Under the pieces are notes generated by a model. That model saw only the letters and a program-made list of their open reading frames with translations. It ran no database searches and was not told the DNA's origin. A stretch of DNA of 43,068 bases from a virus: the IMG/VR virus record IMGVR_UViG_3300048930_000175, positions 1 to 43,068 of that record. One strand, 5' to 3'. The position numbers and the translations under genes were made by a program. This document shows positions 8,482-29,732 of this stretch, in pieces; position 1 is the stretch's first letter; each line of letters opens with the position of its first letter.

Positions 8482-8680
8482 TTGACTTCCCTTCCTTGTC
8501 TCTTAGCGACTTGAGAAGTTCATTTGACATCTTCACACCTGCAATGTCTACGTTTGGAAGTTGGTGGTGGAGACCGTTGAGGTATCCTTGTTCATATGAT
8601 TCCCTCGACCATCTCCGGGCTTGGGTGTGGATACAGATGGCGGTGATGAAGGTTGCGATAAGAAGAATCCACATGATCAT
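8474..8680 (-). CDS. Small N-terminally anchored membrane protein
   Basis: 68 aa. Residues 2-18 (MWILLIATFITAICIH) form a single N-terminal membrane helix, followed by a charged cytoplasmic-type tail (RRWSRESYEQGYLNG). The start overlaps the stop of the ParB-methyltransferase gene as ATGA, and the 3' end overlaps the ligase start by 8 bp, so it is translationally coupled within the replication operon. No homologous family is recognised. Confidence 0.75.
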   Translation of the reverse strand: MIMWILLIATFITAICIHTQARRWSRESYEQGYLNGLHHQLPNVDIAGVKMSNELLKSLRDKEGKSNV

Positions 8681-10047
8681 TCGCCTTTCAAACTCTCATC
8701 AGGTTTTTGGTCATCGCCCTTCCTTGACAAAAGCGCCTGAGCACGGAAGAAGTTATCCTGATCAAGCTCAAACCCAAGGGCCTTACGTCCAAAGTCCCGA
8801 GCGACCTTGATGGTCTTCCCGCTTCCAGCGAAGGGGTCGAGGATCATGTCATTCAGGGTCGAGCTTTGTTTGAGGAAAAGCTTGATCAGATCTCCCGGTT
8901 TCTCAAAGGGGTGCATTCTCTCACCGACAGGGACTGGAGGGAATTGGAGGATATTCCGGATACCCTCAGCCAGGCGCCTGACCACCGGACCTGGCTTGCG
9001 GCCGAAGAGAATGGGTTCGTAGGAGGAAGTGTAGTTATACCCTCCGAACTGAGAAACCGGACGTCCTTTGTCCCAGATCAGGGGCGCCGGATGAGTCTCA
9101 AACCCGGCCTGAGAAAGGGTGGAGATGATGTGAGGATAGAGATCAAAGGCGAAGAACATGTAGAAGTGTGACCCAGGTTTCAGGACTCGATAGAGCTGAG
9201 GAACCAACTCGTTCAGGAGACCCTTCACAGCATCTTGGTTCAGGTTATCCGATGGCTTGAGCATGGCGGTATACGTCGCACGTTCTCCACCACCTGTGCC
9301 TTCAGCCAAGGCGATCTCGGGATTTCCGAACGGAGGATCGGTGATGATGAGGTCAACGGAGTTATCAGGAACCTGCTTGATCAACTCTCGACAATCCCCG
9401 TGTTTGATATCTGCACTTACGAACAGATTCCCTCCCTTAGCCAAGCGCTCAAGTCTCTCCGCTTCCTGGCGCTTTTCGATCACCCGCTTAGCTGCCTTGA
9501 GAGGGAGGTCTTTTACTGCGTCCTTCAGGTCCGGTCGTTCTTTCAAAGTCTTCGCGAGGTTGATCTTCTCACTCACCGTACCCTTAGACTGCCCCACCAG
9601 GTCGGCGGTTTTCTCAATCGTCCACCCGTCGGTTTCTTTTCCCTGAGACCCCGAGCCCTTGATCTCTCGCTTTATCTCGTCGATCTGAGAGATCAGTTCG
9701 CATTCCTCTTGCCATGAGAGGGCTTGACGCCTGAGATTTTCCTCAAGCTCGATTTCTTTCTGCTGAAGCCCGGAGAGGTTGTCGAAGATCGTGATCGGAA
9801 CTTCCTTCCGACCGAGGGCAAAGAGCGCTCGGTATCTGCGTTCACCTGCGATGAGCTTATACTTCCCTCCAGGAAGGGGAGAACAGACAAGAGGATGAAG
9901 AAGCCTCTTGCCAATGCTCTCGACGTGGGACTTCATGTCTCCAAAGTCCTTTCGAGCGCGGTTCTGGTCAATGACAATAGACTCAATCGGAACCATCATC
10001 CACTTGCCATAGACATCTGACACCTGGGTCTCTGCTAGGTCGGTCAT
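8677..10047 (-). CDS. ParB-like nuclease/DNA-binding domain fused to beta-class DNA methyltransferase
   Basis: 456 aa. Residues 17-110 are a ParB/Srx-like N-terminal domain with the GERRYRA motif at 68-74. An HTH follows (about 140-166, TIEKTADLVGQSKGTVSEK), as in ParB/Spo0J. From about 205 the protein is an amino-methyltransferase: catalytic DPPF at 237-240 precedes the SAM-binding DPFAGSGKT at 404-412, the beta-class order of N6-adenine/N4-cytosine enzymes. Such fusions occur in phages and may methylate phage DNA against restriction. No cognate endonuclease gene is seen. A hairpin with a T-run lies between this gene and the next one upstream. Confidence 0.88.
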   Translation of the reverse strand: MTDLAETQVSDVYGKWMMVPIESIVIDQNRARKDFGDMKSHVESIGKRLLHPLVCSPLPGGKYKLIAGERRYRALFALGRKEVPITIFDNLSGLQQKEIELEENLRRQALSWQEECELISQIDEIKREIKGSGSQGKETDGWTIEKTADLVGQSKGTVSEKINLAKTLKERPDLKDAVKDLPLKAAKRVIEKRQEAERLERLAKGGNLFVSADIKHGDCRELIKQVPDNSVDLIITDPPFGNPEIALAEGTGGGERATYTAMLKPSDNLNQDAVKGLLNELVPQLYRVLKPGSHFYMFFAFDLYPHIISTLSQAGFETHPAPLIWDKGRPVSQFGGYNYTSSYEPILFGRKPGPVVRRLAEGIRNILQFPPVPVGERMHPFEKPGDLIKLFLKQSSTLNDMILDPFAGSGKTIKVARDFGRKALGFELDQDNFFRAQALLSRKGDDQKPDESLKGE

Positions 10048-13136: not shown

Positions 13137-13178
13137 ACGCGGCTCCTGAGTAGAGTAGAGAAAATGTTCTGTCCAAAA

Positions 13179-13303
13179 GAGCCGGGTGGGAATCGAACCC
13201 ACAACCTTCCTATCTATGCCGGGCGTGGCTGGCCGTGTCACAGCCCTTTGGACTCGCTGATCGGCATATCAAGGACGATCTGCCAGTTGACCTCTACCGG
13301 CTC
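13179..13303 (-). ncRNA. tRNA-like element 1 with an extended helix in place of the anticodon arm
   Basis: Read leftward: GAGCCGG (13303-13297) pairs perfectly with CCGGCTC (13185-13179). The T-arm GTGGG-TTCGATT-CCCAC (13202-13186) is canonical. A D-arm-like GGTC-AACTGGCA-GATC lies at 13292-13277, including the GG that docks to the T-loop. Instead of a 17-nt anticodon arm there are about 70 nt: TCCT/AGGA and ATGCCG (13267-13262)/CGGCAT (13221-13216) build an irregular helix. No 7-nt loop with U33 can be placed with confidence. CCA is not encoded. It could be a tRNA with an unusual intron, a decayed tRNA, or a distinct tRNA-like RNA. Confidence 0.55.
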
Positions 13304-13321
13304 TCCGCTCGCGTGAGGAAA

Positions 13322-13781: not shown

Positions 13782-14027
13782 TCAAACATCCTTCAGGATA
13801 GCAAGAAACTGTCGAGACGGGCGGAAGAAGATCACGGAGAATCCTGGGTGAGAGATGCTGAGATCCCTTGCTCGGGAGATCGCATCTTCGAGGGATTTTT
13901 CTTCCTGAGAGTGGATAAAGCTCGGAGTTCCTCGGGGATCGTGGATAAGATACACAAACCCAATCTGTATCTCCTCTCGCAGGCCTTGGGCTTCATCCAG
14001 CGACGCTTGTATCAGCTCGGTTTTCAT
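13782..14027 (-). CDS. Small protein of unknown function
   Basis: 81 aa starting at ATG 14027 (MKTELIQASLDEAQG). The open frame extends upstream to 14468 but that part crosses tRNA-like element 2 and a hairpin and lies antisense-like over another gene's frame, so the inner Met is chosen. An amphipathic N-terminal helix precedes beta segments (IGFVYLIHDPRG, FSVIFFRPS). No family recognised. It lies between tRNA-like element 2 and the basic-protein gene. Confidence 0.65.
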   Translation of the reverse strand: MKTELIQASLDEAQGLREEIQIGFVYLIHDPRGTPSFIHSQEEKSLEDAISRARDLSISHPGFSVIFFRPSRQFLAILKDV

Positions 14028-14039
14028 GGCTTTCTCCAA

Positions 14040-14216
14040 AACACCGGCAGGATTCGAACCTGCAGTGGACTGCTGTTCAGTTCCCCGATATTTATAGCCA
14101 CTCACGAACTTAGTCCTGTTGAGGACTCTAGATATCCACCAACTATCTTCCGTGAGCCGTTGTCCTTTTGGCCTCGGGGTGAGCGGGCCTGCGTCTACCA
14201 ATTCCGCCACGGTGTC
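14040..14216 (-). ncRNA. tRNA-like element 2 (tRNA-Leu-like D-arm and variable arm) with long structured insertion
   Basis: Read leftward: GACACCG (14216-14210) pairs with CGGTGTT (14046-14040). GCGGAATTGGTAGACGC (14207-14191) is a textbook class-II (Leu-type) D-arm. The T-arm GCAGG-TTCGAAT-CCTGC (14063-14047) is canonical, and a variable-arm hairpin precedes it. A normal tRNA-Leu is about 87 nt; this is 177 nt. The middle folds as CCCCGA/TCGGGG (14179-14174 with 14088-14083), GGCCA/TGGCT, CTCACG/CGTGAG and AGTCCT/AGGACT. No standard anticodon loop is evident. It is too short for a normal group I intron. CCA is not encoded. Confidence 0.6.
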
Positions 14217-14221
14217 ATAAA

Positions 14222-14259
14222 CCCCTCGGGAGAGGAGGGGAAGTCTCCTTCCCGAGGGG
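14222..14259 (-). terminator. Strong hairpin between the 118-aa gene and tRNA-like element 2
   Basis: CCCCTCGGGA (14222-14231) and TCCCGAGGGG (14250-14259) form a perfect 10-bp stem, and AGGAG/CTCCT extends it inside. On the - strand it is followed by only a short TTTA, so it may be a weak terminator, an mRNA-stabilising 3' hairpin, or a processing signal ahead of tRNA-like element 2. Confidence 0.6.
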
Positions 14260-14280: not shown

Positions 14281-14637
14281 TTACTCGTTGTCGTCGTCGT
14301 CTTCCTTGGGCAGACGAGCCTCGTATTCCTTGACGATCTGGTCCGAATACTTCTTGACCAGCTCGCCCAGGCGGACCATGTCGCCGCTCGCAGCGGCGAA
14401 CTCTTCGCTGGTGATCTTGGACATGGCCATGACGCGGATCTGTTCCTTCGTCGGCATGCCCACCGCACCAGCGCGGGTGAGGTTCATGGCGTTGGTCTTG
14501 GTCTGGGAGTTGATCAGGTCGAGAATCTTCTCCTCGCTCTGGTCCTGAACCGCTTCGGCCACACTGTCATACTTCTTGTAAGTGGCCTGACCGACGACCT
14601 TGGACTTGGACTTGACATCAGCGGTGCAAAATTGCAT
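14281..14637 (-). CDS. Hypothetical protein with acidic C-terminal tail
   Basis: 118 aa, MQFCTADVKSKSKVVGQ..., largely helical, ending in PKEDDDDNE. Its codon use is more GC-rich than the adjacent 14727-14957 gene. A GGAA-containing site precedes the start. The acidic tail is typical of small phage proteins that bind basic partners or single-stranded DNA-binding proteins, but no family is recognised. A strong hairpin follows its stop. Confidence 0.7.
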   Translation of the reverse strand: MQFCTADVKSKSKVVGQATYKKYDSVAEAVQDQSEEKILDLINSQTKTNAMNLTRAGAVGMPTKEQIRVMAMSKITSEEFAAASGDMVRLGELVKKYSDQIVKEYEARLPKEDDDDNE

Positions 14638-28007: not shown

Positions 28008-29732
28008 ATGAAAGACCTATCTGTAGAAGACTGGATCGACGAGCTTGAGGAAGGTCTCAAGTTTCGGAGAGAGTTCGGGCTCGAAGAGCACTGGGCTGAG
28101 GTAGAGGCTTTGTTCTATCATGTTCATCCCTCGAACGCTCAGGAAGGTCCGAACCTTATCGCATCGACGGGAGATGCCTTGATCTCCCAGCTTGCTGTTC
28201 CAGCCCCGAGGATTGGGATTCAGGCGAAGAGAGTCGAGCTTCTCGAAGCTGCGAGGATTCTGGAGAGTTTGGATAACACCCTGATCACCGAGCTTGGCCT
28301 TCCAGAGGAAATCGAGGACATTATCCTCCACGCGTATCTCTGGGGGACTGGGATTCTCAAGCTTGGCTACGACTCCGAGTGGGGATGGGACCCGGGGTTG
28401 GACATCGGTTCATCCAAGAAACCCATGGGAGCGTCGCTTTCTCAGTTCTCGAAGAAAGGTACTCGGATTGAGTACAACTCCCGTGTCCGACCGGGAATGC
28501 CTTGGGCGAGTGCAGTGCTTCCGCATGATATCGTCGTTCCTTATGGAACCCGGAAGCTTTCCAGTGCTCCGTGGATTGCTCATAGGGTGATCAGACACAT
28601 CGATCATCTCAAGAGCGATCCGAAGTACGAGAACAAGGGAAGGCTCGAGCCTACGCTTTCGATGGAGGATTTTACGAAGTCTTATTCCCAGGTTTCTCAG
28701 AAGCATCACATCCACCAGTATCAGACCCGGATGGATCGAGCCTTTGGTGGTGCAGAGTTTTGTGAGCTTTGGGAGATTCATGATCGTCGGACTGAGCGAA
28801 TCCAGGTCGTGGCTACGGGGCATGACAGGTTTTTGCGAAACCAGGATGATATCCTCCAACAGGATGGACTTCCTTTTGTCTCGCTTTCTTTCGTTCCCAG
28901 AGCAAGATCGTTCTGGACGACTTCTGATGCCGTGTATCTCCGTGCTGCTCAGGCAGAGATTGTGGATATCTCTCTCCAGGCTCAGAAACAACGTCGAGCG
29001 AGTGTGATGAAGTTCCTCTATGGTGAGGACGCGATTGATTCTGAGGAGCTTGAGAAACTTCTCTCTGGAGACGTCGGTGTCGCAGCCAAGGTCAAAGGGG
29101 GTCGGGCGCTGAGCGAAGCTATTATGCCCATGACTCCATCCAACCTGAACAACCAGCTTCAGATGGATTCCGAATACGTCCGTCGAAACTCCCGAGAGCT
29201 TGTTGGGTTCTCACGGAACCAGCTTGGAGAGTTCGAGGCCTCAGGCCGGCGAACGGCACGAGAAGCAATGATTGTGGAAAACGGGTCTATGAGGCGAATG
29301 GGCCGGAGAGAACTCATGCTCTCCCGGACCTATATCGACGCCTTTCGGAAGATCAACCCGATGATCTTCGACTTCTGGACCACCCCGAGGTGGACACAGA
29401 TTCTCGGCCAGGGTGGGACGATGGAGTGGGTTCAGTTCAACGGGCCTGAGCTCAAGGGTTCGTATAACTATGAGATCACGTTCATGTCCGACGATATCCG
29501 GACCCCTGGTCAGCGAAGGGCTCAGGCGGCCCAGTTGCTCCAGATGCTTGCTCAGGATCCCACCGTGGACCAGTACCAGCTTCGACGGTACTTCCTCCAA
29601 GCCATGAACGACCCCGAGATGCGACAGTTAATTAGCCAGCCTGGAAACGGGCAGGGAGATCAGAATGCCAACTTACAGCTTCCGGTGTCTGATATGTCAC
29701 AAGGTCGAGGATCGGGTGCTCAGAATGGCTGA
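28008..29732 (+). CDS. Portal protein (head-tail connector), podovirus type
   Basis: 574 aa. The N-terminal helical clip (EELEEGLKFRREFGLEEHWAEVEALFYHVHP), the HAYLWGTGILKLGYDSEW segment and the C-terminal helical barrel region (GRREL...IDAFRKINPMIFDFWTTPRW) match large podoviral portals. The position between terminase/fibre genes and scaffold/capsid genes agrees. It forms the dodecameric ring through which DNA passes. The C-terminus is Gln/Gly-rich. It overlaps the zinc-ribbon gene by 68 nt. Confidence 0.85.
   Translation: MKDLSVEDWIDELEEGLKFRREFGLEEHWAEVEALFYHVHPSNAQEGPNLIASTGDALISQLAVPAPRIGIQAKRVELLEAARILESLDNTLITELGLPEEIEDIILHAYLWGTGILKLGYDSEWGWDPGLDIGSSKKPMGASLSQFSKKGTRIEYNSRVRPGMPWASAVLPHDIVVPYGTRKLSSAPWIAHRVIRHIDHLKSDPKYENKGRLEPTLSMEDFTKSYSQVSQKHHIHQYQTRMDRAFGGAEFCELWEIHDRRTERIQVVATGHDRFLRNQDDILQQDGLPFVSLSFVPRARSFWTTSDAVYLRAAQAEIVDISLQAQKQRRASVMKFLYGEDAIDSEELEKLLSGDVGVAAKVKGGRALSEAIMPMTPSNLNNQLQMDSEYVRRNSRELVGFSRNQLGEFEASGRRTAREAMIVENGSMRRMGRRELMLSRTYIDAFRKINPMIFDFWTTPRWTQILGQGGTMEWVQFNGPELKGSYNYEITFMSDDIRTPGQRRAQAAQLLQMLAQDPTVDQYQLRRYFLQAMNDPEMRQLISQPGNGQGDQNANLQLPVSDMSQGRGSGAQNG

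Follow-up and report, generated by a model that had tools for sequence, protein, structure and literature searches.

A tRNA-Leu-like phage element with a folded domain in place of the anticodon arm, and a class of similar elements in other phages

The YrlA RNA (Rfam RF02553) of the Ro60/Rsr system is a stable noncoding RNA with a tRNA-like module, and its Ro60-binding stem is located at the RNA ends. tmRNA (Rfam RF00023) has a tRNA-like end domain without an anticodon arm, and a large insert lies between its tRNA halves. Phage T4 produces two stable RNAs, called C and D or species 1 and 2 (rnaC of 139 nt and rnaD of 119 nt), small RNAs encoded beside a tRNA cluster and of unassigned function. 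The tRNA-like domain has been described for YrlA (PMC7790460), and 3' tRNA-like structures of plant viruses are known to hijack tRNA-binding host factors by mimicry of the tRNA elbow (PMC4810234). Here we describe an element of related design in a 43,068-nt stretch of viral DNA (the window; IMG/VR record IMGVR_UViG_3300048930_000175). The record is that of a 43-kb tailed phage and encodes a DNA polymerase, a Sak4-like protein, a terminase, a portal and head proteins. The parts of the element are as follows.

14040 to 14216, minus strand: the whole element, tRNA-Leu-like, 177 nt long, with a replaced anticodon arm
14210 to 14216, minus strand: acceptor stem, 5' strand GACACCG, pairing at 7 of 7 positions (one G-U) with 14046-14040
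14191 to 14209, minus strand: linker TG (8-9) and class II Leu-type D-arm GCGGAATTGGTAGACGC
14180 to 14190, minus strand: linker AGGCCCGCTCA from the D-arm to the replaced arm (sequence, predicted fold)
14083 to 14179, minus strand: branched arm replacing the anticodon arm, with the closing helix CCCCGA (14179-14174)/TCGGGG (14088-14083) (predicted fold)
14151 to 14156 with 14101 to 14106, minus strand: inner helix CTCACG/CGTGAG of the branched arm (predicted fold)
14122 to 14127 with 14112 to 14117, minus strand: inner helix AGTCCT/AGGACT of the branched arm (predicted fold)
14069 to 14081, minus strand: variable-arm-like hairpin ACTG-AACAG-CAGT (predicted fold)
14064, minus strand: U48, Levitt-pair partner of A15
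14047 to 14063, minus strand: canonical T-arm GCAGG TTCGAAT CCTGC
14040 to 14046, minus strand: acceptor stem, 3' strand CGGTGTT

The initial annotation had described a textbook class II D-arm, a well-paired acceptor and T-arm, and a length twice the normal one, and all of these were confirmed. The minus strand at 14209-14191 reads TGGCGGAATTGGTAGACGC, which is exactly a bacterial tRNA-Leu D-arm. Its 18-nt core has a single match in the whole window against a chance expectation of 0.00, and this D-arm is invariant in A2. The distance from the D-arm to the T-stem is 127 nt, compared with about 33 in a normal tRNA-Leu. The insert begins with AGGCCC GCTCACC and has no 7-nt loop with U33; a folded arm of 86 bases stands where the codon-reading arm would be. 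The predicted fold has five arms, which are the acceptor, D, branched, small variable-arm-like and T arms. Nested helices had also been proposed for the insertion. The sequence contains all four, and the minimum-energy fold includes most of them; one, GGCCA/TGGCT, partly competes with an extended helix, GGCTCACG/CGTGAGT. The fold energy is only modestly below that of shuffled sequences (z -1.63; 9 of 200 shuffles were equally good), and therefore the case for this element rests on its relatives. This particular insert has no homologue, so that its inner fold is predicted only. The element thus shares the D-arm, 7-bp acceptor, T-arm register and U48 of the Leu-type class defined below, as well as the 127-nt insert without a U33 anticodon arm. 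It departs from most of the class in its discriminator, which is U73 (T at 14039), whereas Leu usually has A73.

Standard RNA finders do not recognize the element. ARAGORN with default settings made no call, and with introns allowed it returned forced 'tRNA-Met' or 'tRNA-Val' calls at exactly 14216-14040. An Rfam search of the window gave no match at the gathering cut-off or at E up to 5, including the YrlA covariance model and, at the element, known intron, riboswitch and ribozyme families. tmRNA was rejected because both ARAGORN -m and Rfam were negative at the element. A functional tRNA-Leu was rejected because no anticodon arm bearing a Leu anticodon is present, and a tRNA with a group I or II intron because Rfam gave no match and the insert is too short. 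For the class as a whole, the tRNA model RF00005 recovers only some of the elements. Each of the known systems shares some features with the element and lacks others. tmRNA resembles it in its overall layout, but the element has a full Leu-type D-arm and an insert too short for a tag frame and pseudoknots. Unlike YrlA, elements of this kind end in an open acceptor stem with A/U73 and carry the extra domain at the anticodon-arm site. T4 rnaC, compared by eye, has a similar perfect T-arm at its 3' end (CCGGG TTCGAAT CCCGG). It lacks a D-arm of Leu type, however, and only 5 of 7 positions pair in its putative acceptor. The plant-virus structures share the elbow mimicry, but they are 3' ends of RNA genomes, whereas the elements are intergenic genes of DNA phages. 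Ordinary phage tRNA-Leu genes have an identical D-arm, U48, T-arm and mostly A73; unlike them, the elements have no anticodon arm, carry a longer replaced domain and are missed by default ARAGORN.

The existence of a class of such elements is well supported by sequence comparison. We scanned IMG/VR for Leu D-arms with an abnormal gap to the next T-arm (105-135 and 62-92 nt), and at least 120 viral contigs were found in each gap range; all counts from the scans are lower bounds from a non-random sample. Tandem normal tRNAs were checked with ARAGORN as a source of false positives. Normal tRNAs explained 80 of the 122 long-gap matches, leaving about a third unexplained. A script that additionally demanded a paired T-stem and acceptor defined the Leu-type set, which comprises at least about 120 distinct elements whose inserts measure 50-133 nt; L091, L111, L128, L146 and L213 were false or odd and were left out of later Leu-type counts. 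When acceptor pairing was not required and the group with the dominant acceptor AGTCAGG was excluded, 63 of 77 elements still paired at 6 or more of 7 acceptor positions, against 5.8 (maximum 14) when acceptor halves were swapped between elements. We also built an alignment of the window element and 48 further elements that have distinct acceptors. In this alignment, 99.2% of stem cells were paired (72.5% after shuffling), 204 two-sided changes were counted against 49, and all seven acceptor pairs covaried. Since these 49 elements had been selected for pairing beforehand, the test on the 77 elements is the cleaner one.

Features outside the stems are conserved as well. Position 48 is T in 120 of 123 Leu-type elements and in 63 of 63 normal tRNA-Leu, and A73 is common without being universal (100/123). 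In contrast, an anticodon arm with 5 bp and a 7-nt loop containing U33 was found in only 4 of 120 Leu-type elements, compared with 54 of the 61 ordinary tRNA-Leu genes of phages. Next to position 48, a helix is present more often than in the control (71/120 versus 39), and the average insert is more structured than its shuffles (mean z -0.96, n=121). The elements are intergenic: they overlap a long ORF in 4/77 and 5/79 cases, while control positions overlap in 97/154 and 105/158. No other tRNA is present at 70 of the 123 loci. Across 84,980 genomes of bacteria and archaea, the strict pattern gave 11 stretches, and in one bacterial family 1 of 296 genomes carries an element. The Leu-type element is a phage feature. 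The cultured Bacteroides fragilis phage BF1-TP2 carries one (1508-1636, acceptor GGTGGTA/TACCATC), labelled there as a hypothetical protein; it overlaps gp8, and this gene call is probably wrong. In another phage contig (L216; 6857-7268 and 8135-8530), two Leu-type elements occur together with GOLLD RNA and a tmRNA gene.

A sister family, the Firmicutes type, shares this design but has the D-loop GGAATAGGTAGACGC, a T-stem of 6 bp and the T-loop TGCAAAT. It is carried by named phages of lactic acid bacteria, namely Lactobacillus phage phiJL-1, ATCC 8014-B2, Satyr, R24.2, Ln-9, phiLM33_01, WC29P3 and Hujiaoplasma phage zrk29-2, none of which is annotated with an RNA at the element site. IMG/VR contains at least 107 distinct Firmicutes-type elements with many different acceptors. 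Six or more of the seven acceptor positions pair in 101 of the 107, against 11.8 (maximum 19) by shuffling; U48 is present in all 107, A73 in 67, and a U33 anticodon arm in 2. In an alignment of 42 of these elements, 98.5% of positions were paired, with 180 two-sided changes against 46.5. The smallest insert, in phage Sha1, is a single hairpin of 31 nt, again without an anticodon arm. In Leuconostoc phage Ln-9 and the related LN34, phiLNTR2 and CHB, the flanks are near-identical while the inserts are unrelated (73 and 44 nt), and the D-stem shows a compensatory change from GCG/CGC to GAG/CTC; to judge from the sequences, this looks like replacement of a cassette. In Lactobacillus phage LP65, a Firmicutes-type element at about 1201-1422 has an insert of about 160 nt and overlaps the annotated orf80.

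These comparisons bear on two explanations of the unusual length. The first is that the elements are functional tRNAs with a small intron of a new kind, as the initial annotation had considered. ARAGORN accepts the window element only when an intron is allowed, and a few elements (L169, L218 and class I types, see below) keep a stem like 27-31/39-43 and a variable arm around the insert. However, the U33 anticodon arm is absent in 116 of 120 Leu-type elements, so that no anticodon arm is left for splicing to restore. Downstream pairing partners of 27-31 occur at a weak excess or none (Leu-type, 43 versus 32; Firmicutes-type, 22 versus 21 expected). With 31-133 nt, the inserts do not reach the length of a group I or II intron, they have no sequence in common, and there is no consistent anticodon. 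For the Leu type, an intron is thus highly improbable. The second explanation, a decayed tRNA gene or the remnant of an attachment site, is scarcely credible. Phages S-TIP37, S-TIP28 and RHEph01 do have tRNA-Leu pieces, or a copy, beside an integrase gene, and these are likely attachment sites; they lack the paired acceptor and T-arm with an insert, and we regard them as different from the element class. No integrase was identified near the window element, and for the class as such, decay is excluded by the compensatory changes seen in every stem. The earlier argument against chance decay is therefore upheld, by hundreds of intergenic phage elements with covarying acceptor stems and without an anticodon arm. 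So is the suggestion of a new class of phage tRNA-like RNA. The element may or may not be a decoy for tRNA-targeting defences, as had also been suggested; the portion that is cut by anticodon nucleases is missing from it.

The window element lies between two genes of an early operon on the minus strand. Its surroundings are listed here.

13782 to 14027, minus strand: downstream gene, 81 aa, no family match
14222 to 14259, minus strand: GC-rich hairpin CCCCTCGGG...CCCGAGGGG, with 5 nt between its end and the element
14281 to 14637, minus strand: upstream gene, 118 aa, no family match
13178 to 13306, minus strand: first element, with a perfect 7-bp acceptor GAGCCGG/CCGGCTC

The Shine-Dalgarno sequence GGAG (14037-14034) of the 81-aa gene follows the 3' end of the element by 2 nt. 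The loop of the upstream hairpin is too long for the terminator scan, and this strong GC hairpin could be a signal for processing or attenuation. Because the Shine-Dalgarno sequence is adjacent, the main rival at this locus is a cis-acting processing mark: RNase P and RNase Z would divide the polycistronic early mRNA and give the next gene a clean Shine-Dalgarno sequence, and the excised RNA would be inert. The arrangement of same-strand genes and the hairpin fit this idea, and so does the position of some Firmicutes-type elements, which have a DUF722 late regulator on one side and HNH/terminase genes on the other. A processing mark, however, needs the acceptor and T-arm alone, and the preserved D-arm, U48 and large, structured, exchangeable insert are left unexplained. 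We therefore consider it unlikely. Elsewhere in the window, 8677-10047 on the minus strand encodes one protein whose N-terminus matches ParB-like nuclease families and whose C-terminus matches DNA methyltransferase families. No close relatives of the source phage were found in IMG/VR by means of its Sak4-like and DNA polymerase proteins, nor with a DNA pattern specific to the element, and the best matches of terminase and polymerase to named phages are about 31-33% identical.

The first element (13306-13178), on the same strand, has a T-arm (GTGGG TTCGATT CCCAC) in addition to its acceptor. Its D-arm is GGTC-AACTGGCA-GATC, a stem TATGCCG/CGGCATA stands at the anticodon-loop position, and the fold z is -2.1. 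By its sequence, it looks like the inserted type on a class I chassis. In a control scan with a common class I D-arm, we found inserted tRNAs, of which 67 of 97 had matching acceptors. Specificity for Leu was thus rejected, because class I chassis carry inserts too. Class I elements often keep an anticodon stem that encloses hairpins, and the motif ACAGCAA recurs among them; other class I subgroups share TTACTTC or GGTAAAGGACCG motifs. The Leu type and the class I type may share a way of evolving.

The class I elements are neighbored by genes for DUF2828 and TROVE (Ro60) proteins, many of them less than 3 kb away. TROVE was present in 8 of 50 class I records and DUF2828 in 24, with either one in 32; the corresponding numbers for control records with an ordinary tRNA-Leu were 2, 0 and 2 of 49. 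The 24 records also show that the DUF2828 model works, despite finding nothing in the controls. From this excess, the class I RNAs are probably phage Y RNAs, tRNA-mimicking partners of a Ro60-type protein like the bacterial YrlA RNA. Class I genes with a hairpin and ACAGCAA beside DUF2828/TROVE genes occur at L272, L282, L284, L292, L302, L305, L308, L315 and other loci; with their open acceptor stem, they are candidate phage Y RNAs. Listeria phage P100 was examined because the reported abundant noncoding RNAs adjoin an Rsr-like gene. A script search of P100 found no element of the class; a ROOL-like RNA lies near tRNA genes at 29073-29624 on the minus strand (86 bits, slightly short of the 99.1 that Rfam requires). 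This RNA may correspond to the abundant noncoding RNA reported in the related phage CKA15, for which the authors suggested a possible identity as Y RNA (PMC12282133).

Could the window element, too, be a tRNA-mimicking partner of a Ro60-type protein? Leu-type records show no excess of such genes (TROVE 3/50; DUF2828 2/50, one of them over the cut-off), in which they also differ from YrlA. PF05731 and PF11443 are both absent from the window record, which may be partial; this holds for the first element as well, despite its resemblance to the class I type. Together with the lack of a YrlA match, this leaves the 14216-14040 element unsupported as a Y RNA, and we regard this role as quite improbable for it.

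LeuRS does not read the anticodon. A tRNA-like RNA without an anticodon arm might thus be leucylated by LeuRS, and it might deliver or sequester leucine or the synthetase, in principle in the manner of tmRNA. The frequent A73 and the A15-U48 pair in 120 of 123 Leu-type elements agree with such charging, and LeuRS contacts the tRNA elbow (PMC4810234). On the other hand, the window element has U73, A73 occurs in just 67 of 107 Firmicutes-type elements, and similar insertions are found on class I chassis, for which most of the synthetases do recognize the anticodon. For these reasons, leucylation as the function is very unlikely.

We give an even chance to the reading that the 14216-14040 element is one member of a widespread group of tRNA-Leu-derived phage noncoding RNAs, which are processed, stable and non-decoding and present a swappable effector domain on a tRNA scaffold. 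Throughout the class, the aligned sequences show that the acceptor, D-arm, T-arm and tertiary elbow are kept, that the anticodon arm is lost, and that a variable folded domain of about 50-130 nt replaces the anticodon and variable arms. The retention of U48 and the acceptor, the loss of the anticodon arm and the intergenic position indicate an RNA that is selected as tRNA-shaped and is unable to decode. RNase P, RNase Z, the CCA-adding enzyme and LeuRS recognize the elbow and acceptor (PMC4810234). Because the kept parts are those recognized by tRNA enzymes, the simplest account is that host maturation excises and stabilizes the RNA, and that the middle domain would be its active part. In this account of a non-decoding RNA, the element would be transcribed with the minus-strand operon, host RNase P would release it at the 5' end and RNase Z or exonucleases at the 3' end, CCA would possibly be added, and the product would accumulate as a stable RNA. 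The least certain steps are the last ones. The tRNA part may be a scaffold and docking module that holds the exchangeable effector domain, and this domain may act as an antisense RNA, a sponge or a protein-binding RNA, in trans against the host or competing elements. The function of the class is what we infer, and several observations count against this reading: the insert of the window element has no relative, U73 in that element speaks against charging by LeuRS, the directly following Shine-Dalgarno sequence fits a cis role too, and no recurrent neighbor gene names a partner for the Leu type.

These RNAs appear to be uncatalogued although present in hundreds of phages, and we found no description of them in open-access PMC. 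tRNA finders miss or miscall their genes, so that a frequent type of phage RNA remains unlabelled, even in published cultured phages such as phiJL-1, Ln-9, ATCC 8014-B2, WC29P3 and BF1-TP2. The class I side finding links phage DUF2828/TROVE proteins to concrete candidate Y RNAs. The elements also give an experimental handle on non-decoding tRNA-like RNAs of phages, a question dating from T4 RNA C and D. It is possible, though the chances are somewhat against it, that phages of several host groups (Bacteroidota, Bacillota and others) encode an unrecognized class of RNA effectors, in which a tRNA-Leu chassis without an anticodon arm carries exchangeable domains and would ride on host tRNA maturation, with the host, host defences or rival phages as its targets.
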